IMG/VR virus record: IMGVR_UViG_3300032893_000101
Span: 1-44,510 of that record
Source of the DNA: a virus
Reading direction: 5' to 3' (one strand)
DNA: 44,510 nucleotides
Under the pieces are notes generated by a model that was not told the DNA's origin, searched no databases, and saw only the letters and a list, made by a program, of their open reading frames with translations. The first letter of the stretch is position 1, and each line of letters begins with the position of its first letter. This document shows positions 22,178 to 41,579 of the stretch, one piece after another. The position numbers and the translations under genes are program-made.

Positions 22178-23476
22178 ATGAATGCCATCACTCCAAACAG
22201 ACTGGATCGCTCGCGCAAACGTAAATTGAGGTTGTTGAATGTCATCAAACGCGGCCGGATTTTTTATTTCAAGAAGCGCGCCGGCGCCACCTTGTTTTTT
22301 GAATCGCTCAGGACCGATGACGAGACGTTAGCCGTGGAGCGCGCAAAAGTCAAGGCGCAACAGCTGGTGGACGGCGAGCTGGCCCGGCTGCGCAAGGAAA
22401 AGAAGGCCGCATCGCTGGCGGATATTTTTGCCACGCATCAGCCGCCGGCCGGTCCGGACGGGCGCCGGCCCAAAATGCCGCGGTCGCTTTATTGCCAGTG
22501 CCAGGCGTTGCTGGGTGTCGTCAACATGGCAAAAGCGGAAAGCGGAAAGCGGAAAGCGGAAGAGATTTGCACGACGGAGCTGACGCCGAAGCTGGTGAGG
22601 GATTATCAGGACGCGATGCGCCGGCGGTATGAGCTGGAGTTGACGGACAAATTGGCGGCGCAGCAGCGTCGGCCAACCGCGGACGAGCTGGCGGATGCCC
22701 GGGACAAGGCGGACAGGTCGAGCAAATCGCTGTTCAAGCAGGCGAAGAATCTTTTTTGCAAGAAGCACGCGCGGGTGGAACGGTATCGGGAGCAGGGCTT
22801 GATCATCCCGGAGTGCGTGAAGGATTTTTGCGCGACCAAGGCGATCGGCTCGATGCGGAGCAAGGTGTATCTGCCGGCGGATGACGCGGCGCTGGAACGG
22901 ACGTTCACGGAAATCGAACAGGAGCCGCACGACGGGCCGGTTTACCGGCTGTTCTGGGCGGTGATTGCGATCGGCGGCCGGCGCGGCGAGGTGCTGGACA
23001 TGCGGGTGGAGGATTTTGCGGACCTGGACGGGCAGCTGTGGATCCGCGGCGGCCGGGGCAAGGACAAGCGGGAGATCCAGCTGCCGGTGATCAATTGCCC
23101 GGTGCATGCGTCGAGCAGCACGAAGCCGGTGGACGTGGTGCGGCGGTTGATTGCGGAGGCGAAGGCGGCGGGGCGCAGTTTTTTGTTCAACGGTTCAGAG
23201 CATTTCCGGCATGACGTGTTGAGCCGGCTGGTGAATGCCTGGCTGGCGGCGCGCGGCTGGCGGGATGAGAAGAAGTTGCACGCGTTGCGGGCATATGTGG
23301 GCAGTCTGCTTTACGCGAAGGATCCGCATCTGGCCAAGGATTATTTGCGGCACAAATCGCTGCTGACAACGGAGCAGTTTTACACGCATTTTTTCAAGCT
23401 GAAGGTGATTCCGAACATGCAGCTCGTGGCCCAACCGGCGACGAATGTAGTGCCGATGCTGAAGGCCGAAGGGTGA
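22178..23476 (+). CDS. int: Tyrosine recombinase (phage integrase)
   Basis: The 432-residue product has the catalytic set of the family: R268 in IGGRRGEVLDM, H368 and R371 in LHALRAY, H392 in LRHKSLL and nucleophile Y402 in TTEQFYTHFF. The N-terminal ~65 residues are basic (arm-binding-like), followed by a core-binding domain. A heptamer microrepeat (GCGGAAA, about 22531-22556) inserts AESGKRKAEE in frame near residue 120. It should catalyse attP x attB recombination at tRNA-Arg. Adjacent attP and a nearby Xis-like gene support this. It is not an IntI: the extra IntI-specific helix region is not recognisable. Confidence 0.92.
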   Translation: MNAITPNRLDRSRKRKLRLLNVIKRGRIFYFKKRAGATLFFESLRTDDETLAVERAKVKAQQLVDGELARLRKEKKAASLADIFATHQPPAGPDGRRPKMPRSLYCQCQALLGVVNMAKAESGKRKAEEICTTELTPKLVRDYQDAMRRRYELELTDKLAAQQRRPTADELADARDKADRSSKSLFKQAKNLFCKKHARVERYREQGLIIPECVKDFCATKAIGSMRSKVYLPADDAALERTFTEIEQEPHDGPVYRLFWAVIAIGGRRGEVLDMRVEDFADLDGQLWIRGGRGKDKREIQLPVINCPVHASSSTKPVDVVRRLIAEAKAAGRSFLFNGSEHFRHDVLSRLVNAWLAARGWRDEKKLHALRAYVGSLLYAKDPHLAKDYLRHKSLLTTEQFYTHFFKLKVIPNMQLVAQPATNVVPMLKAEG

Positions 23477-29307: not shown

Positions 29308-29594
29308 AAAAAACCAACACAAAAACACCGCTCGTCATCACCACCGCCCACCGTGGCGTTTTCTTCGGTTACGGCGAGGTCACCACTGACAAAACCATCC
29401 GGCTGGAAAACGCGCGAATGTGCGTTTACTGGTCCAGCGATTGCAAAGGGATCGTGGGATTGGCGGCAACGGGCCCAACGAAAAGTTGCAAGATAGGTCC
29501 TGCGGCACCCGCCATCACGATCCAGGACGTAACTTCAATCATGGAAGCCACCAAAGAAGCGGAGGCCGCATGGAATTCACAGCCTTGGAATTAA
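29304..29594 (+). CDS. Small conserved phage protein (DUF6948-like)
   Basis: The 96-residue product (PLVITTAHRGVFFGYGEVTTDKTIRLENARMCVYWSSDCKGIVGLAATGPTKSCKIGPAAPAITIQDVTSIMEAT) matches, from memory, a widespread phage family of unknown function (DUF6948-like), a small beta protein with the HRGVFFGY and MCVYWS signatures. It overlaps the helicase stop by ATGA and the glycine-repeat gene by 25 bp. Commonly found beside a Gly-rich repeat protein. Confidence 0.7.
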   Translation: MKKTNTKTPLVITTAHRGVFFGYGEVTTDKTIRLENARMCVYWSSDCKGIVGLAATGPTKSCKIGPAAPAITIQDVTSIMEATKEAEAAWNSQPWN

Positions 29595-30226
29595 ACGGCT
29601 CCGGCGACGGCTCCGGCTTCGGCTACGGCTACGGCTCCGGCTCCGGCGACGGCTACGGCTACGGCGACGGCTACGGCTCCGGCTACGGCTCCGGCTACGG
29701 CTCCGGCTACGGCTCCGGCGACGGCTACGGCTACGGCTCCGGCTACGGCGACGGCGACGGCTACGGCTCCGGCTCCGGCGACGGCTCCGGCTTCGGCTCC
29801 GGCTTCGGCTCCGGCTTCGGCTCCGGCTACGGCTACGGCTACGGCTCCGGCGACGGCTCCGGCGACGGCTACGGCGACGGCTACGGCTCCGGCTCGGAAA
29901 AAACAAACTACATCGCCGCAGTGCTGGCACCGCACGCGGCAAATTATCCAGAACACAAAATCTGTTTCTGGCGCAGCAAGAAAGACAACACGCCGGCCAA
30001 TGGAGGCCACGGAACAGTAGCCAAGGAAGGTTTCACGGAAACCATCACCGGCCCGCTGCGGATCTGCACGGAGAAAGCACTTCACGGCACAAACAATCCC
30101 AAGAAATGGAAAGGGGAGAAGTTGTGGATTGTCGCCTTAAAAAATCCCGTGCAACAGGACGACGACAAATTCGCCTCACTCACAAGAACCTTCATCAAAG
30201 ACCTGGGGAATTGCCCCTGGGCATAA
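29570..30226 (+). CDS. Glycine-rich hexanucleotide-repeat protein
   Basis: I start at ATG 29570 (MEFTALELN, RBS-like GCGGAGG 6 nt upstream) and not at 29420. Residues 10-109 are exactly 50 Gly-X pairs with X = Ser, Tyr, Asp or Phe. The C-terminal ~109 residues are ordinary sequence (EKTNYIAAVLAPHAANYPEHKICFWRSKKD ... RICTEKALHGTNNPKKWKGEKLWIVALKNPVQQDDDKFASLTRTFIKDLG). The RICTEKALHGT/WKGEKLWIVAL part resembles a domain I have seen after similar repeats in other phages. Role unknown; the repeat could phase-separate or act as a flexible display. Confidence 0.7.
   Translation: MEFTALELNGSGDGSGFGYGYGSGSGDGYGYGDGYGSGYGSGYGSGYGSGDGYGYGSGYGDGDGYGSGSGDGSGFGSGFGSGFGSGYGYGYGSGDGSGDGYGDGYGSGSEKTNYIAAVLAPHAANYPEHKICFWRSKKDNTPANGGHGTVAKEGFTETITGPLRICTEKALHGTNNPKKWKGEKLWIVALKNPVQQDDDKFASLTRTFIKDLGNCPWA
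29597..29896 (+). repeat. 50-unit hexanucleotide repeat (GGC + TCC/TAC/GAC/TTC)
   Basis: Exactly 300 bp of the form GGCNNC, with every second codon one of TCC, TAC, GAC or TTC and every glycine encoded by GGC. Absence of other glycine codons indicates recent slippage-type expansion and not slow protein-level selection. The length is probably variable between isolates. Confidence 0.95.
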
Positions 30227-35227: not shown

Positions 35228-37494
35228 CCATAGACACAACATCACAAACAGTGGTTGCCAACCCGGATGACCGGCAAGCTGCCGGCGGCGATTCTTTGGC
35301 GATCGTGGAACAGGACGGCGGGGCGCTGGAATTGTCCAAGGAGGAACTCACGAAGTTCAAGGACGAGATCAACAGCATCGCCAAGAGCGGGCGGTATCTC
35401 GTCCACGCGCGGCGCTGGGCGGCCGAACGGACGCGGTTTGCGCTGTGGGACGGCCAAAGCCCGGACGGGCGCAAGCACAAGGACAACAACGACGGGCGGC
35501 CGGCGTTTCCGTTCGAGGGGGCCAGCGACGTGCGCTACCGGCTGGCGGACATGATTGTGAATGAGCGGGTGCTGGTGCTCACGGCGGCGGCCATGCGCAA
35601 CCTGCCGCGCGTGTCCGCGCTGGACAGTTTCAACCAGCCGCTGGGCACCAAGCTGACGACGCTGCTGAAGTGGGTGATCAAAAACCAGCTGGGCAGCCAG
35701 TATCTGCGCGAGATCGTCAAAGTGGCGCAGTATCAGGAGGCGGACAGCCCGGCCGGCGCGGTGCTGGGGGTGTGGTGGGACCAGGAATGGGCGCTGGAGC
35801 TGGCGACGGTGGACACGCAGCAGCTGGGCCAGGTGCTGATGACGCCGCGGGCGCAGGGCGGCTACGGACTGGCGCCGGAACAGATGAACCAGCTGGACGC
35901 GCAATTGCAAAACCCGGACCAAGACGCGGAAAGCGCGGGCTTTTTGCAACAGCTCATCCCGTCGCTGAGCGCCAAGCGGGCCAAGCAGGTGATTGCGGAT
36001 TTGCGCGAGAAGGGCACGGCGGAATTTCCGCGCCCCTACAAACGTCTGGACCAGCCGTGCCTGTGCGGTTACCGGCTGTTCGAGGACATCTTTTTCCCGG
36101 CCAACACGACGGACGTGCGCAAGCGGGCACGGCTGCAGATCATCCGCGAATGGGTGGCGGAAGTGGACGTGCGGGCGCGCGTGGTGACGGACGATTACAC
36201 GCAGGAGTTCGTGGACGAGGTGCTGCAGCACGAGGCGCAGAGCGCGTTTCCCGAATACGAGCGGCACGAGGTGACGGGCGAGTGGACGCCGGTGAGCATG
36301 ACGGAGATGCAGGAATTGCACAAGGGCGAGTATGAGCTGCTGACGGTGCTGTTCCGGGCGACCAACGACGACAACATCCCGGGCATCTATTATTTTGTGA
36401 TGCACCATCAGGTGGATTTCGCCGCCAAGGCGCGCGAGCTGCTGGATTACAGCCACGGGGAATATCCGCTGACGTGGTTCGGCCGGGAGATCCTCGGGAA
36501 CCGGCTGCTGGACAGCCGGGGCGTGCCGGAGCTGGTGAGCACGGACCAGAACGCGCTCAAGCTGCACGTGGACGCGTTCAACGACAACGTGACGCTTTCC
36601 ACGCTGCCCAACATCAAGGTGCCGCGCCGGCGCAGCAAGCTGAGCCTGGTGATCAAGCCGCTGGGCATCATCAAGGAGGACCGGCCGGGCGACGTGAGCT
36701 GGATGCAGCCGCCGCAATATCCGGCCGGGAGCGAGAAGCAGCAGGCGCTCATCAAGGCGCGCGTGGACGAGTTTTTCGGGCGCATCAGCGAGACGGTGCC
36801 GCCGACGCTCACGCAACTGCATCAGCAGGGCATGGTGATGAATTTCCTCATCAGCCTGGCGGACGCGCTCAAGCAGCTGCTGCAGCTGTGCCAGCAATAC
36901 ATGCCGGACGACGTGCTGGCCAAGATCACGGGCGACGACGGCCAGCCGATCGCACACAGCCGGGACGAGATCCAGGGGCAGTTCAACGTGGAGCTGGAGT
37001 TTGACCCGGCCAACATGGACATGAGCTATTTCCAGCAGATTGCGGAAATGATCATCAAGGTGCTTTCGATTGACGTGCTGAACGTGAGCCAGCGGGACCA
37101 GATTGTGCAATGGTTCTTTGCGACGATCAGCCCGACGATGGGCCAGCGCTGGGTGCGGCCGGTGCAGGCGGCGCAGCAAAGCGAGGAGGACGACGAGGTG
37201 AACAACCTGGTGAAGATGCAGAACGGCATCGAGCCGCCGATGCTGGCCGAGGGCATCAACGCGCCGTTGCGGTTGCAGGTGCTGCAGCAGCGGACGCAGA
37301 TGAACCCGGAGATCCTGCAGAACCTGAAATCCAAGCCGGTGAACATGGAGATCTTCACGCGGCGGGTGCAGTATCTGCAAAACCAGATCCAGCAGCTCAA
37401 GAACGCGCAGATCGGGCGGCAGGTGGGGCAGCCGGCCTTGCAACAGCCGGGGCAGCCGGGGGCGGGAATTGCGGGGATGCTGGGGAATGGGTGA
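35224..37494 (+). CDS. Portal protein
   Basis: The 756-residue product is of podovirus portal size. It contains the acidic start (LSKEELTKFKDEINSIAKSGRYLVHARRWAAERTRFALWDG), WPFEGASD-type segment (PAFPFEGASDVRYRLADMIVNERVLVLTAAAM), a wing with YFVMHHQVDF and GREILGNRLLD, and a helical end with Gln-rich coiled coil (RVQYLQNQIQQLKNAQIG). The dodecameric portal is the DNA entry channel and docks terminase and adaptor. Gene order terL then portal is standard, but then an accessory cassette array intervenes before scaffold and capsid. Confidence 0.85.
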   Translation: MTIDTTSQTVVANPDDRQAAGGDSLAIVEQDGGALELSKEELTKFKDEINSIAKSGRYLVHARRWAAERTRFALWDGQSPDGRKHKDNNDGRPAFPFEGASDVRYRLADMIVNERVLVLTAAAMRNLPRVSALDSFNQPLGTKLTTLLKWVIKNQLGSQYLREIVKVAQYQEADSPAGAVLGVWWDQEWALELATVDTQQLGQVLMTPRAQGGYGLAPEQMNQLDAQLQNPDQDAESAGFLQQLIPSLSAKRAKQVIADLREKGTAEFPRPYKRLDQPCLCGYRLFEDIFFPANTTDVRKRARLQIIREWVAEVDVRARVVTDDYTQEFVDEVLQHEAQSAFPEYERHEVTGEWTPVSMTEMQELHKGEYELLTVLFRATNDDNIPGIYYFVMHHQVDFAAKARELLDYSHGEYPLTWFGREILGNRLLDSRGVPELVSTDQNALKLHVDAFNDNVTLSTLPNIKVPRRRSKLSLVIKPLGIIKEDRPGDVSWMQPPQYPAGSEKQQALIKARVDEFFGRISETVPPTLTQLHQQGMVMNFLISLADALKQLLQLCQQYMPDDVLAKITGDDGQPIAHSRDEIQGQFNVELEFDPANMDMSYFQQIAEMIIKVLSIDVLNVSQRDQIVQWFFATISPTMGQRWVRPVQAAQQSEEDDEVNNLVKMQNGIEPPMLAEGINAPLRLQVLQQRTQMNPEILQNLKSKPVNMEIFTRRVQYLQNQIQQLKNAQIGRQVGQPALQQPGQPGAGIAGMLGNG

Positions 37495-37594
37495 AGAGGG
37501 GAAACATCGAACATTCAACATTCAACGCTGAACATCGAACGACACGAGATAAGCGACCCTGGAATTGGAACAATCAAAACCAAAAACAAAAAAC
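37495..37594 (+). repeat. GAACATTCAACATT-type repeats and left end of the attC array
   Basis: From 37501 a GAACATTCAACATTCAACG-type repeat precedes the first attC half-site, ATCGAAC at 37534-37540. No gene is seen here. Confidence 0.6.
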
Positions 37595-37746
37595 ATGCAA
37601 ACTTACAACTGCTGTAAATGTGGCAAGCCGGTTGAATCTGAGCTTAACCTTGATAGGTCTCTCACAATTCTCTGTTTTGATTGTTACAATGGAAGGGCGA
37701 CCGAAGGGAGACCCGCAGGGTTCGCTTCATCGACCGGTTCAGATTC
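37534..37746 (+). other. attC-like site 0
   Basis: R'' ATCGAAC (37534-37540) and L'' GATAAGCGACCC (37548-37559) face L' GGGTTCGCTTCATC (37718-37731) and R' GTTCAGATTC (37737-37746). L'' and L' pair except for two unpaired bases. The L''/L' pair is nearly the same as that of site 3. It overlaps the start of the gene at 37595. Confidence 0.6.
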
Positions 37747-38044
37747 CGCCGCGCCTAGCGTCCAGACACCGCCGGTCGTCGCGGAGCCTGTGGCAAATCC
37801 AAAACTGTCGAGCATGGGAAAGGAAGATGAGCCAGTCGATTTATCTCGTGTCGTTCAGCCTCCGGTAAGCGGTTCGGCCTGCGTCTGGGCGCAGAGTTAC
37901 GATTCAGATTCATGGGACACAGGCTGCGGCAATGCGTTCACCATCAATGATGGAACGCCGAAAGAAAACCAAATGGCTTTTTGCTGCTTTTGCGGTCGAA
38001 AACTAAATGAACGCCTTGTTCAGCCTCAAAAACGAATTTTATGA
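37595..38044 (+). CDS. Zinc-ribbon protein with attC-derived segment
   Basis: Start ATG 37595 (MQTYNCCKCGKPVES). The 149-residue product has an N-terminal knuckle pair (CCKC, CFDC) and a C-terminal zinc ribbon typical of small phage proteins (CVWAQSYDSDSWDTGCGNAFTINDG ... MAFCCFCGRKLNERLV). Between them, GRPAGFASSTGSDSAAPS is encoded by the attC site 0 crossover region, so this looks like two genes fused through a recombination site. Compare the similar PQGFASTGGSAPS in the gene at 39098. It overlaps the next gene by ATGA. Confidence 0.6.
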   Translation: MQTYNCCKCGKPVESELNLDRSLTILCFDCYNGRATEGRPAGFASSTGSDSAAPSVQTPPVVAEPVANPKLSSMGKEDEPVDLSRVVQPPVSGSACVWAQSYDSDSWDTGCGNAFTINDGTPKENQMAFCCFCGRKLNERLVQPQKRIL

Positions 38045-38486
38045 GAACCACAAAAATAACAATCGGTAGACTCTACAACCTCGGCAACTACGAGCATATA
38101 CGCTACGAGATTTCCGTGGAAATCGGCGAAGGCCAGAGCGCGGCGACCGCGATAACCGGCCTCGAAAATATCCTGACCGCCCTCAATCCGACAATGCCTC
38201 CCGGTGTGTTGAGTGACCGACAAATCGAGGACGCCAAAGAGAGGATAAAGAAAGTCGAAGCGAAACCCGACAATGAAGTGGCAGAGCGCCACGGGAAATG
38301 CAAGGCGCTCGTCATCGCAGAAGCGCAAAAGAAACTCGATGCCGCCATCGTAAAGACGACCAAGTGGAATGCCACACAACGCCTCGCGCGCCGGATGCTC
38401 GACGACCTCGGCGGCGCTGAAAAGTTCGTGGATGCCAAGCAAAATTGGGACAATGACTACTACAACGACGACTTTTGAGGCTGAAC
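38018..38486 (+). other. Cassette 1 (strongest terminal match)
   Basis: GTTCAGCCTCAAAA (38018-38031) is matched by TTTTGAGGCTGAAC (38473-38486), 14 bp, as cassette ends should be. The gene at 38041 lies inside. The alternative left end is R' of site 0 (37737), with a weaker GTTCAG/CTGAAC match, so the left limit is uncertain. Confidence 0.6.
38041..38478 (+). CDS. Conserved phage protein in cassette 1
   Basis: The 145-residue product begins TTKITIGRLYNLGNYEHIRYEISVEIGEGQSAATAITGLENILTAL, a start I recall from many phage proteins of unknown function. An Asp/Lys-rich helical body follows (LSDRQIEDAKERIKKVEAKPDNE) and an acidic end. Its stop lies 8 bp before the AAC triplet of the cassette end. 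No enzyme motif is seen. Confidence 0.7.
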   Translation: MRTTKITIGRLYNLGNYEHIRYEISVEIGEGQSAATAITGLENILTALNPTMPPGVLSDRQIEDAKERIKKVEAKPDNEVAERHGKCKALVIAEAQKKLDAAIVKTTKWNATQRLARRMLDDLGGAEKFVDAKQNWDNDYYNDDF

Positions 38487-38607
38487 GCCGACATCAGGCA
38501 CGGCGGGTAATGCCTGAACCAATCGAACCAAACCAAATATGAAAAGACTCAAATCAATCGTAGTGGCAACGGCACTAGCCGTTGCCTGCATGGAGTTGTT
38601 AAGCGGC
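38479..38607 (+). other. attC-like site 1
   Basis: R'' GGCTGAAC (38479-38486) and L'' CATCAGGCACGGC (38492-38504) face L' GCCGTTGCCTGCATG (38578-38592) and R' GTTAAGCGGC (38598-38607). L'' and L' pair except for two bases bulged from one side. A further hairpin TCAGGCA/TGCCTGA forms within the left part. Confidence 0.7.
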
Positions 38608-38736
38608 TGCTCAACAATCCACGGTGACTACAAAACCACAACCTTAGCGGGAGGAGCATACAAGCGTGTCTCGACTGGCTATGGTGAGACGGTGCAACTC
38701 AACCTGCTCTGGATTCCGGTCTATAAAGACTACTAG
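38539..38736 (+). CDS. Lipoprotein completed across the attC crossover point
   Basis: The 65-residue product has a signal (KRLKSIVVATALAVACME) and lipobox LLSG-C, then STIHGDYKTTTLAGGAYKRVSTGYGETVQLNLLWIPVYKDY. The signal part is encoded inside site 1, while LLSGC and everything after begins exactly at R' (GTTAAGCGGC), the left end of cassette 2. So the lipoprotein is made only with this attC/cassette combination. The 41-residue mature lipoprotein could act as a small outer-membrane protein; function unknown. Confidence 0.6.
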   Translation: MKRLKSIVVATALAVACMELLSGCSTIHGDYKTTTLAGGAYKRVSTGYGETVQLNLLWIPVYKDY

Positions 38737-38865
38737 CCGCTTAACGTGGAGCCAAGCTGCCGTGCGGGGCAAGGCTCTCCAAAGTAAAATGAACCAACAA
38801 ACCAAAAACCAACCGCCTCGGCTGAAGGGACTCGCACGGTCAGCTTCGGCGAATTGTTAGGCATC
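38736..38865 (+). other. attC-like site 2
   Basis: R'' GCCGCTTAAC (38736-38745, matching cassette 2 start GTTAAGCGGC), L'' AAGCTGCCGTGCG (38754-38766), L' CGCACGGTCAGCTT (38833-38846) and R' GTTAGGCATC (38856-38865). L'' and L' pair perfectly with one extrahelical T, the diagnostic attC feature. R'' and R' fit RYYYAAC and GTTRRRY. Confidence 0.85.
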
Positions 38866-38868
38866 ATC

Positions 38869-39054
38869 ATGGAACTTTTTATCAAACTATCATTCTGGCT
38901 GGGCGTCGTGTGCTTCACCATCCGCATCATCGAGATGGCAGTCCGCGAATGGCCAGAGGAACGCAAACCAAAATCACTCGGCCAGCACGTCGCGGAAACA
39001 ATTCTTGGCGTCGCTGTCACAATCTGGGCTGGCATCTTGCTCTACGGACATTGA
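38869..39054 (+). CDS. Two-helix membrane protein, cassette 3
   Basis: ATG 38869 is the first ATG after R' (an in-frame TTG at 38854 overlaps the site). The 61-residue product has two membrane helices (about 3-20, LFIKLSFWLGVVCFTIRI; 43-59, ETILGVAVTIWAGILLY) with a basic loop. The cassette runs from GTTAGGCATC (38856) to GATGCCTAAC (39053-39062), 10 bp matched; the stop codon lies at its right edge. Compact single-gene cassette in the normal integron style. Function unknown. Confidence 0.6.
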   Translation: MELFIKLSFWLGVVCFTIRIIEMAVREWPEERKPKSLGQHVAETILGVAVTIWAGILLYGH

Positions 39055-39055
39055 T

Positions 39056-39246
39056 GCCTAACAGACCAAGTTAAGCGACCCCGAAAGGACAAACCAAATG
39101 AAATGTTCAAGGTGCTGTAAAAGAATCCGAAACGGAAAATACAAACGGGATACGTGCTTTGGTGGTTACATGCATTTGGTTTGTCCTGTAGGGGCAAGCG
39201 CAGCGCAGACCCCGCAGGGGTTCGCTTCAACGGGTGGTTCCGCGCC
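39056..39246 (+). other. attC-like site 3
   Basis: R'' GCCTAAC (39056-39062) and L'' GTTAAGCGACCCC (39070-39082) face L' GGGGTTCGCTTCAAC (39217-39231) and R' GTTCCGCGCC (39237-39246). L'' and L' pair except for two bases. An extra 15-bp inverted repeat (39060-39074 with 39315-39329) suggests a second, inverted half-site within cassette 4, so the right limit is less certain. Confidence 0.65.
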
Positions 39247-39634
39247 GTCGCTCGCGGCCAAGCTCCAAGGTCCAACCGAGGCTCTGGGTGCAACTCATGG
39301 TGAAACACCCGTTGTTAACTTGGTCTGTTCCGCGCCGGTGGAGCGTTCCGGCGGGACGGTTGAGTATATCAGCGGCGTAGATGGTTTGACATACAAAATC
39401 GAGAAATTCTTTGTCGGTTACAACGAGGTTCAAATGGAAGTAACTCTTTGTAACCCTCTTTTTTACCGAGATGGTTGCCTCTGGTTTGGGCCGTTTCAAC
39501 CGCCGGATTCTGGCCAGTGCAACGGCCAGAAAGCGACAAGCTCGCTGAAAGGGCGAAAGGGAAAGCGAGCGACGGCGCGGAACGATGGAGCCAAGCTGCG
39601 TGCTCCCGGCATAACCGACAACCCAAAATCCTGA
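39098..39634 (+). CDS. Read-through ORF across site 3 into cassette 4
   Basis: The 178-residue frame starts with a zinc-finger-like piece (MKCSRCCKRIRNGKYKRDTCFGGYMHLVC) inside site 3, crosses R' as GSAPSL, and continues through cassette 4 (39237-39583) with VDGLTYKIEKFFVGYNEVQMEVTLCNPLFYRDGCLWFGPFQPPDSG, and on into site 4. Cassette 4 is bounded by a perfect 19-bp match (GTTCCGCGCCGTCGCTCGC and its complement at 39565-39583). A GTG at 39338 could start a cassette-only protein. Function unknown. Confidence 0.5.
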   Translation: MKCSRCCKRIRNGKYKRDTCFGGYMHLVCPVGASAAQTPQGFASTGGSAPSLAAKLQGPTEALGATHGETPVVNLVCSAPVERSGGTVEYISGVDGLTYKIEKFFVGYNEVQMEVTLCNPLFYRDGCLWFGPFQPPDSGQCNGQKATSSLKGRKGKRATARNDGAKLRAPGITDNPKS

Positions 39635-39701
39635 ATATGGCAAATTACATTGACAAACCTGAAAGCGTAATCACGTCAGCTTCGGCGACTTGTTATGGCG
39701 C
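39574..39701 (+). other. attC-like site 4
   Basis: R'' GGCGCGGAAC (39574-39583), L'' AAGCTGCGTG (39593-39602), L' CACGTCAGCTT (39672-39682) and R' GTTATGGCGC (39692-39701). The L''/L' pair has a single extrahelical T at the same place as in site 2, and both share GGAGCCAAGCTG and CAGCTTCGGCGA. Confidence 0.85.
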
Positions 39702-39906
39702 ATCACCCTCAATCGCAGAACTGCGCCAAAATCAAGACGTGAAAATTTCCGAAGCTGTCCGGCTGCAATATGGTGAACCAGTCGAGAATGACGGCGAATG
39801 TGACCAATGCTTCGCCAAAGGTCTGCCAGTGTGGGCAAGCCTAAACATAGACGGTGACTGGATTGGACTTTGTGCCAGATGTATCAACGAAAACAATGCG
39901 CCATAA
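39637..39906 (+). CDS. Zinc-knuckle protein, cassette 5
   Basis: ATG 39637 lies in site 4; the frame crosses R' as TCYGAS and continues SPSIAELRQNQDVKISEAVRLQYGEPVENDGECDQCFAKGLPVWASLNIDGDWIGLCARCINENNAP. The CDQC and CARC pairs suggest a small zinc-binding fold. The cassette ends are GTTATGGCGC (39692) and GCGCCATAAC (39898-39907), 10 bp matched; the stop lies in the R'' triplet. The start codon is uncertain. Confidence 0.55.
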   Translation: MANYIDKPESVITSASATCYGASPSIAELRQNQDVKISEAVRLQYGEPVENDGECDQCFAKGLPVWASLNIDGDWIGLCARCINENNAP

Positions 39907-40035
39907 CGATGGAGCCATGCCATGAGCGATAAACCTCCAATCCGCCGCCGCAGGAATCCTGCGCGTCTACCAGCCAAAAGAGCCGCCAAGCCCAAGGGCG
40001 TAAAGCTCATTGGCATCGGCGACTTGTTATCTGGC
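39898..40035 (+). other. attC-like site 5
   Basis: R'' GCGCCATAAC (39898-39907), L'' GATGGAGCCATGCC (39908-39921), L' GGCATCGGCGACTT (40012-40025) and R' GTTATCTGGC (40026-40035). L'' and L' pair with one bulged base and share the GGAGCC and CGGCGACTT elements of sites 2 and 4. Confidence 0.85.
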
Positions 40036-40260
40036 GTCAAAGCTCTCACTCATCCGAACTATCACAAGCTGAATCTCGCCGAGGGAAGAAACGACCGACT
40101 GCTGCACGCTGTCCTATGCGCGTATGCTAAACATCATCTGGACTGCCCCGATATCGGATGGGAGCAGCTTGGTGACATCCTCCACAACGCCATCTGCAAT
40201 GAAATTGGTGATGACAAATACATCGCGTGGGGCAAGCGAATAACTGGAGACACACAATGA
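39922..40260 (+). CDS. Cassette 6 protein 1, read-through of site 5
   Basis: ATG 39922 starts inside site 5. The first ~35 residues (PPIRRRRNPARLPAKRAAKPKGVKLIGIGD) are attC-encoded and strongly basic; LLSGVKALTHPNYHKLNLAEGRNDRLLHAVLCAYAKHHLDCPDIGWEQLGDILHNAICNEIGDDKYIAWGKRITGDTQ is cassette-encoded. A TTG within the crossover could also start it. The conserved-looking helical HAVLCAYAKHHL/WEQLGDILHNA part suggests a small phage protein of unknown function. It ends in an ATGA overlap with the next. Confidence 0.55.
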   Translation: MSDKPPIRRRRNPARLPAKRAAKPKGVKLIGIGDLLSGVKALTHPNYHKLNLAEGRNDRLLHAVLCAYAKHHLDCPDIGWEQLGDILHNAICNEIGDDKYIAWGKRITGDTQ

Positions 40261-40715
40261 CCGTAGCCTTCCTGCAAAATATGTGGGTCAAGAACCCGGA
40301 GAGAGTGCGTGCTGACATCCAGCGCCATGGTGAAGGATTTCGGCTCCGATTTATGAAGTATGCGCTCTTCGCGGGATGTGTGACGGGCCGCCGACTTAAA
40401 GCCGCCTTCGGCGACCTCTGTGATGAAATCGTGTGGGAGGAAACGACGCGCGAAATCGCGGGCGACCCAAAGACCATCTTCCCGGCGCAGCCTGACCACA
40501 TTCGCGCCGTGCTCGAAAAATACAAACCGGATGTGGTGTTGACGTTCGGGGCAATCGCTCGACTCGTCGTGCTTCCCTTATGGAGTGGCCGCCTGATAGC
40601 CGCGCCCCATCCCGCTGCGAGACAACCAGACACCATAGCCAAACTACAAGCTGCCGCCGCCGAACTGCGGAAGGTCAAGCCAGATAACGATGCCGGTGAG
40701 CGGCGCGAGAATTAA
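40257..40715 (+). CDS. Conserved phage protein, uracil-DNA-glycosylase-like fold candidate
   Basis: ATG 40257 overlaps the previous stop. The 152-residue product (MTVAFLQNMWVKNPERVRADI ... FAGCVTGRRLKAAFGDLCDEIVWEETTREIAGDPKTIFPAQPDHIRAVLEKYKPDVVLTFGAIARLVV ... RLIAAPHPAAR) is a phage protein type I recall from many genomes. The order VVLTFG..., then a His-Pro near the end (APHPAAR) resembles the active-site layout of uracil-DNA glycosylases, but that is tentative. It lies in cassette 6 (GTTATCTGGC 40026 to GCCAGATAAC 40679-40688), the longest cassette, with its last residues in site 6. Confidence 0.65.
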   Translation: MTVAFLQNMWVKNPERVRADIQRHGEGFRLRFMKYALFAGCVTGRRLKAAFGDLCDEIVWEETTREIAGDPKTIFPAQPDHIRAVLEKYKPDVVLTFGAIARLVVLPLWSGRLIAAPHPAARQPDTIAKLQAAAAELRKVKPDNDAGERREN

Positions 40716-40790
40716 CCATGACATCCACTTTAGCCAACGACAAACGAGAGGGCGTATCCCGCGTCCGCTCCACTGGCTTGTTGGACTGCC
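40679..40790 (+). other. attC-like site 6
   Basis: R'' GCCAGATAAC (40679-40688), L'' GATGCCGGTGAGCGGCGCG (40689-40707), L' CGCGTCCGCTCCACTGGCTT (40760-40779) and R' GTTGGACTGCC (40780-40790). L'' and L' pair along most of their length with two bulged bases. Confidence 0.8.
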
Positions 40791-40969
40791 CGAATTGCGG
40801 CATCCAACCAAAACTGGAAACAACCGGAATCGTATCTGCCTACTGGCTTCAATGCTCTAAGTGCGGCAAAGACGGTGAGGCATACTTCAATCCAAGCCAA
40901 GCAAGAGGAGCGTGGAATGCAATGGTATCTAGGCAGTCCAACGACCGAACTGAGGCACGCCGCCAATGA
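40718..40969 (+). CDS. Lar-like zinc-ribbon protein, cassette 7
   Basis: The frame opens at ATG 40718 in site 6, but the recognisable domain starts at the crossover: LLDCPNCGIQPKLETTGIVSAYWLQCSKCGKDGEAYFNPSQARGAWNAM. CPNC, CSKCG and the closing A-x-x-AWN are the Lar/restriction-alleviation-like zinc ribbon common in phages and prophages. TTG codons at 40778 and 40781, overlapping R', could be the true starts. The cassette is bounded by GTTGGACTGCC and GGCAGTCCAAC (40932-40942). It may modulate host restriction; that is inference. Confidence 0.65.
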   Translation: MTSTLANDKREGVSRVRSTGLLDCPNCGIQPKLETTGIVSAYWLQCSKCGKDGEAYFNPSQARGAWNAMVSRQSNDRTEARRQ

Positions 40970-41132
40970 CTACCGAGAACCAGAAACCCCGCTGCCCGGC
41001 CTGTGGTGGAACCGGCCTAGTGCCATACCCAGGCCGATACGTCAAAACGCCAGTGCTCTGCTCAACCTGCAAGGGCAGCGGCGACAAACCGGAGGCGCAA
41101 TCGGCGTTGTCTCCAGTGAGTTTGTTAGGTGC
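40932..41132 (+). other. attC-like site 7 (contains a DnaJ-type zinc finger frame)
   Basis: R'' GGCAGTCCAAC (40932-40942), L'' GACCGAACTGAGGCACGCCG (40943-40962), L' CGGCGTTGTCTCCAGTGAG (41102-41120) and R' GTTAGGTGC (41124-41132). L'' and L' pair over ACTG, GAG and CGCCG blocks with bulges. At about 200 bp it is longer than usual attC sites. Confidence 0.7.
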
Positions 41133-41298
41133 GGTCGTGGAAATCAAAATGATAGGCTACGATGGCCGATGGTTCGTAGTCCGCGAAGAAGGCAAGAAAA
41201 TCTGGGTGCAGCGCCCGCAAGACTTCAAACCTAAATGGGTCTGGCGGCGATATGCCAAAATCATCGAAAGCCAACAAGCACCTAACAATAGAATATGA
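40966..41298 (+). CDS. Zinc-finger/cassette 8 fusion protein
   Basis: The 110-residue frame begins with a DnaJ-like zinc finger (RCPACGGTGLVPYPGRYVKTPVLCSTCKGSGDKPE) encoded inside site 7, then crosses R' as SLLGAVV and enters cassette 8: EIKMIGYDGRWFVVREEGKKIWVQRPQDFKPKWVWRRYAKII. The two parts look like independent modules joined by the recombination site. TTG 41122 at the crossover or GTG 41134 could start the cassette part alone. The cassette ends at GCACCTAAC (41278-41286). ATGA overlap with the next gene. Confidence 0.55.
   Translation: MTTENQKPRCPACGGTGLVPYPGRYVKTPVLCSTCKGSGDKPEAQSALSPVSLLGAVVEIKMIGYDGRWFVVREEGKKIWVQRPQDFKPKWVWRRYAKIIESQQAPNNRI
41278..41286 (+). other. Terminal attC half-site (array right end)
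   Basis: GCACCTAAC matches cassette 8 start GTTAGGTGC (41124-41132) in inverse. No matching L'/R' half follows within the next few hundred bases, so ordinary phage sequence resumes here. Confidence 0.7.
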
Positions 41299-41579
41299 CG
41301 CAGTGCATGCACGAATCGGGTTTCTTACGGCGGCGTAACCGGCGGCAGGATAAGCGGGAACGCATGTTGCGCAAAATGGCCAATTGGCGCGCCGCCAAAG
41401 CCCGGATCCGACAGGAACGGATTGATGCCGGGCTGCTGGAGCCCGAGCCGAAACGGGTGCGGTATTATCGCTTCGAGTTTGGCGTGCGGAACAAAATGAC
41501 CGGCGAGACGGCCTGGCACGATCTGGTGAGCGTGCGCCACGCCGGCCGGGCGCTGGGGCTAGTCTTGAAATATTTATGA
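41295..41579 (+). CDS. Basic hypothetical protein
   Basis: The 94-residue product is strongly basic at its start (SGFLRRRNRRQDKRERMLRKMANWRAAKARIRQERIDAGLL), then beta (KRVRYYRFEFGVRNKMTGETAWHDLVSVRHAGRALGLVLKYL). It starts in an ATGA with the last array gene but uses the G/C-rich codons of the phage backbone. Nucleic-acid binding is plausible. Not recognised. Confidence 0.55.
   Translation: MTQCMHESGFLRRRNRRQDKRERMLRKMANWRAAKARIRQERIDAGLLEPEPKRVRYYRFEFGVRNKMTGETAWHDLVSVRHAGRALGLVLKYL

Follow-up and report, generated by a model that had tools for sequence, protein, structure and literature searches.

The window analyzed here, the 44,510-bp IMG/VR virus record IMGVR_UViG_3300032893_000101, probably contains a mobile integron array, with eight cassettes and as many attC sites, that lacks an integrase and belongs to a phage-specific class of cassettes with reversed genes. 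The record encodes a fragment of an SU10-type major capsid protein (PF17236, above cut-off) as well as DnaB and ParB families, which places the attC array within a phage genome, as in the phage CALINs described by Qi et al. (2023; PMC9892861); its terminase is recognized weakly by HMM. The "portal" and "scaffold" labels given in a preliminary description of this DNA to the genes flanking the array were inferred from position only and received no HMM support, and the portal-position and terminase-like proteins of the window have no relatives among viral_contigs. The record also holds a gene for a protein of the phage integrase family, a tyrosine recombinase (22178–23473), and, adjoining a helicase gene, an ORF (29420–30226) with a long glycine/tyrosine/aspartate-rich repeat (GSGDGYGYGDG).

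Ten inverted GTT.../...AAC matches of at least 9 bp are present in 37400–41400, compared with a mean of 0.18 (maximum 2) in 300 shuffles, and the cassettes therefore have the inverted ends and G/TT cores of integron cassettes, as the preliminary description proposed. The L''/L' arms with extrahelical bases that it reported are likewise present in the window sites, and fold. An Rfam scan of the window gave no family at the gathering score, and no attC family was found in Rfam; a window-independent covariance model (R1) was therefore built from 26 attC sites in genome_contigs loci, nearly all from Verrucomicrobiota, of which two or three training rows (L113) turned out to derive from a viral contig, G028, and none from the window. 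R1 contains 22 pairs, and its covariation score was equaled in 0 of 500 shuffles. Scored at every window position, R1 recovered exactly eight sites, all on the plus strand between 37534 and 41130, with E-values from 2.3e-10 to 4.6e-3 (modest for sites c and f), the next best match anywhere having an E-value of 0.39 (Table 1). A covariance model search, which the preliminary description had put forward as a check, thus places every site within the region it named, which opens where the first attC begins (37534) and closes where the last cassette stops (41286). A generic attC scanner using the arms alone was dropped as noisy, its shuffle scores lying near those of the window, and the pattern CAGCTTCGGCGANTTGTTR was dropped after three unrelated chance matches (L001–L003).

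No match to the integron integrase model TIGR02249 was found in the whole 44.5-kb record, in agreement with the earlier claim of a phage-borne attC array without IntI. With eight R1 matches within about 4 kb, where two or more attC sites suffice, and no integron integrase nearby, the array is a CALIN, a cluster of attC sites lacking an integrase; of the intI and attI of a complete integron, it has no IntI and an end that is attI-like by resemblance only.

Table 1. Features of the array, 37534–41296. The strand given for attC sites is that of the canonical top strand (minus); R1 matches and genes lie on plus. E, R1 E-value.
Feature	Coordinates	Strand	Details
attC site 0	37534..37744	-	E 3.6e-5; start codon of ORF1 (37595) inside, frame reads through
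cassette 1	37738..38486	+	Remainder of ORF1 (37595-38044; C-terminus phrog_10312-like) and ORF2 (38041-38478)
attC site a	38480..38604	-	E 2.5e-8
cassette 2	38598..38745	+	11-bp inverted end match; ORF3 38539-38736, start within attC a
attC site b	38739..38862	-	E 2.3e-10; folded; two extrahelical bases
cassette 3	38856..39062	+	11-bp inverted end match; ORF4 from 38869
attC site c	39056..39243	-	E 4.6e-3; folded; longer nested alternative to 39333
cassette 4	39237..39583	+	19-bp inverted end match; ORF5 39098-39634, start within attC c after AAAGGA
attC site d	39577..39698	-	E 2.2e-5
cassette 5	39692..39907	+	12-bp inverted end match; ORF6 39637-39906, start within attC d
attC site e	39901..40032	-	E 1.7e-5
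cassette 6	40026..40688	+	10-bp inverted end match; ORF7 39922-40260, ORF8 40257-40715
attC site f	40682..40786	-	E 7.9e-4
cassette 7	40780..40942	+	11-bp end match; ORF9 40718-40969, Lar restriction-alleviation family (PF14354 above cut-off)
attC site g	40936..41130	-	E 5e-6; arms almost the same as those of a site in phage contig G001; L005 1138-1169 is 93.8% identical over 32 bp
cassette 8	41124..41286	+	9-bp inverted end match; ORF10 40966-41298, CXXCXGXG-like motifs
array end	41280..41296	-	Place of attI and intI in IntI-bearing relatives (G028, G041 junctions); no IntI here

At seven of the eight window sites, an ATG in the attC begins a reading frame that continues past the site and into the cassette. 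Gene ends across the viral arrays cluster at two set positions, one being the TAA of the YTAAC core and the other a stop that lies 12 bases beyond it. The phage unit is therefore made up of attC with the start, the gene body, and stops provided by the next attC, an arrangement that mirrors the host unit, where the gene precedes attC. Median cassette length is 265 bp in the viral arrays versus 386 bp in Verrucomicrobiota hosts. A long nested attC form is common to three sites (window 37540–37853, window 39056–39333, and L005 3640–3935), in which the inner attC arms are accompanied by an outer perfect arm pair that differs between sites. The loop contains a Zn-ribbon reading frame, and the core sequence that follows (GTTC...) is found twice, at the ends of the inner and the outer arms.

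Pfam families above cut-off on the reversed strand comprise Lar (PF14354) in the window and, in its relatives, N6_N4 methylase, C5 methylase, PAPS reductase, R2K ATP-grasp, and sigma-70 region 4; Lar and the methylases may point to counter-defence. A relative of ORF8 (58% identity) is an attC cassette in L245/L246, viral contigs with 16 attC sites, while another (43%; L248) lies in a contig without clear attC sites, as does a non-cassette relative of ORF2 in a further phage contig (L244). The cassette genes thus resemble ordinary phage accessory genes.

Integrons are regarded as bacterial gene-shuffling devices, with cassettes that face so as to be read from an attI promoter, and classical attC sites (VCR, aadA1) carry their extra bases in L'' of the top strand. 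Applied to the window, this rule makes minus the top strand of the attC sites, while the genes are on plus. The sites of the preliminary description are real; their orientation is opposite to that of the genes, and the reversal relative to host integrons had been missed. The assignment of polarity rests also on the geometry of host integrons, where arms of the same type adjoin IntI in the usual arrangement, and on ORF occupancy. In host arrays the gene lies opposite the R1 strand (usual polarity) in 41 of 44 cassettes and on it (reversed) in three, one of which (L113) is actually the phage contig G028; in viral arrays 32 are reversed versus 8 opposite (host versus viral, Fisher 2e-12). A codon model trained without the contig being scored called 85 of 111 viral cassettes reversed, one usual, and 25 unclear, the calls by both approaches resting on ORF length and codon statistics of short, GC-rich cassettes. 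This viral set comprised the window, 12 other viral contigs with arrays, and four that also encode IntI. Both measures are given since host cassettes are resolved less well by the codon model (27 usual, 6 reversed) than by ORF occupancy. The published phage integrons TJE1, Shewanella M16-3, and Rctr41k, scored as controls, are not reversed. In the window and its relatives, then, attC is not at the 3' end of the gene as in cassettes of usual polarity. A few cassettes look reversed in three Verrucomicrobiota MAG contigs from genome_contigs (L030, L054, L074), which may come from phages and have been binned with the host, or may hold captured phage cassettes; in four IMG/VR contigs with IntI (L173, L191, L213, L196) the cassettes look usual in polarity, and these could be host contigs or other phage integrons.

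The arm common to sites b and d, RGCTYCGGCGAMTTGTTAKG, used as an exact-pattern query, identified 53 stretches of genome_contigs, almost all from Verrucomicrobiota, and 20 of viral_contigs. A true IntI above the TIGR02249 cut-off is encoded in 11 of the 19 motif-bearing genomes, in several cases on the contig that carries the attC motif, implying that this type of attC arm is a feature of Verrucomicrobiota integrons; a host phylum whose integrons have matching arms, for which the preliminary description had suggested looking, is thus supported. Judged by its attC type, the window phage probably infects Verrucomicrobiota. The spacer at 37500–37545 (aacattcaacattcaacgctgaac) resembles, at 85% over 40 bp, a sequence close to IntI in a Verrucomicrobiota genome (G021; L112), which is consistent with such a host.

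Twelve further viral contigs, taken at full length, hold 3 to 18 attC sites each. Matches to terminase, portal, or major capsid identify G001, G022, G023, G026, G027, G028, G029, and G032 as phages, and the head genes of these eight contigs are unrelated to one another. One unit is shared by G001 and G030 (cassette identical at 648 of 655 positions, left attC at 121 of 123, right attC at 93 of 101), two contigs that are otherwise unrelated, including in the sequence outside the common unit. G029 and G032 have a 171-bp cassette in common at 100% identity and are also related elsewhere.

At least five phages encode IntI (G028, G038, G040, G041, G042). In G028, which has portal and terminase genes, an IntI with the integron-specific insertion adjoins reversed cassettes and scores 263.6 bits with TIGR02249, just below the cut-off of 265; the IntIs of G040, G041, and G042 are about 60% identical to it. 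In G038 (terminase, portal, capsid, primase), a row of at least 14 attC sites whose cassettes are reversed is followed immediately by the gene for an IntI above the cut-off. In G028 and G038, the two with clear arrays beside IntI, cassettes and intI point in the same direction. In the IntI tree, G028, G040, G041, and G042 form one supported clade, while G038 falls among Verrucomicrobiota IntIs. The preliminary description presumed that a host integrase serves the array: a host IntI able to act in trans is indeed available, given its presence in motif-bearing genomes, but the phage-encoded IntIs of sister arrays mean that it is not the sole candidate.

CALINs and complete integrons have been described in phages, and recombination of their attC sites shown (Qi et al., 2023; PMC9892861), so that the presence of an array alone is not new; the preliminary description had called attC arrays in phages rarely described. 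Those elements resemble the window in having attC arrays with or without IntI and small same-strand genes, some for DNA modification; two of them that were re-tested, TJE1 and Shewanella M16-3, have usual polarity, in contrast to the reversed window class, which recurs in a group of phages of Verrucomicrobiota type carrying as many as 18 sites. The sedentary chromosomal integrons of Verrucomicrobiota share with the window class the attC arms, extrahelical bases, and attC direction relative to IntI/attI, but have usual polarity, longer cassettes, and an IntI. In the reverse integron of Treponema denticola, intI is turned toward attI and gene/attC polarity is usual (PMC3607928, PMC7691350); intI and cassette genes have the same direction there, as in G028 and G038, but in the relatives of the window it is the genes that are turned, with intI in its usual place. 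The window itself, with no intI and reversed polarity, is not a reverse integron. Virus Rctr41k (KX853513, a GenBank virus; L242 4680–9977) likewise combines IntI with an attC array, but in the reverse-integron layout and with usual polarity; it does not appear in the tables of Qi et al. that were examined (PMC9892861). Searches of open-access papers turned up no description of a cassette class with reversed polarity.

Other explanations of the array were considered. An ordinary CALIN copied from a host integron, with no special polarity, would agree with the existence of phage CALINs (PMC9892861) and with the match between window attC arms and host integrons. Polarity is, however, reversed in the window and its relatives and not in hosts, TJE1, M16-3, or Rctr41k, which largely refutes this origin, and no window cassette was found at the DNA level in the host arrays, or the phage arrays, compared; we regard it as unlikely. 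It is also quite unlikely that the hairpins serve to control translation or transcription and only look like attC, with nothing recombining. The start codons and read-through frames in seven of eight sites and the clustering of stops at fixed site positions could be explained in this way, but inverted cassette ends, G/TT cores, and extrahelical bases play no part in translation, a cassette is precisely common to the unrelated phages G001 and G030, and true IntI adjoins such arrays.

The genome's own tyrosine recombinase is a very unlikely agent of cassette movement despite its membership of the phage integrase family: it has no TIGR02249 match, is at most 26% identical to any IntI, and forms a very long branch outside them, and was rejected as an integron integrase. 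Misassembly of a bacterial integron onto a phage is conceivable for IMG/VR contigs, which are metagenome assemblies, and several arrays do lie at contig ends; the window array, however, is internal with same-strand genes on both sides, 12 further viral contigs carry arrays, most of them with phage hallmark genes, and the polarity differs from that of bacterial integrons, making a chimera the most improbable of these explanations.

As read from the sequences, the array is best interpreted as part of a phage-adapted cassette pool that IntI from the host or a phage would move and that phage operon transcription would read. The mobile unit would have attC 5' of the gene, often with the start codon in its loop, and would receive its stops from the next attC arm. 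IntI, acting in trans from a host chromosomal integron or a co-resident phage integron, would fold and recombine the attC bottom strand (here the gene sense strand), and units would be gained, lost, or swapped at G/TT. No close relative of the window phage was found, and hence no gain or loss was seen in the window array itself. Because the genes are reversed, they would be read by phage operon transcription toward the attI/intI end and not from an attI promoter. The likely pay-off would be fast exchange of small accessory genes, e.g., for anti-restriction and DNA modification.

We lean, with some reserve, toward the broader proposal that Verrucomicrobiota phages keep an integron system of their own, with a reversed-polarity pool, phage IntIs of at least two lineages (G028/G040/G041/G042 and G038), and a reversal that isolates phage from host pools, since the promoter of a host integron would read a captured phage cassette in antisense. 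The reversed polarity is the new part, and finding it both here and in no fewer than a dozen other viruses suggests that phages operate a gene-capture system of this kind for themselves. If so, phages would use integron recombination as a gene-shuffling system of their own, probably for counter-defence genes, and the reversed phage class makes the isolation of phage and host cassette pools by polarity a testable question.
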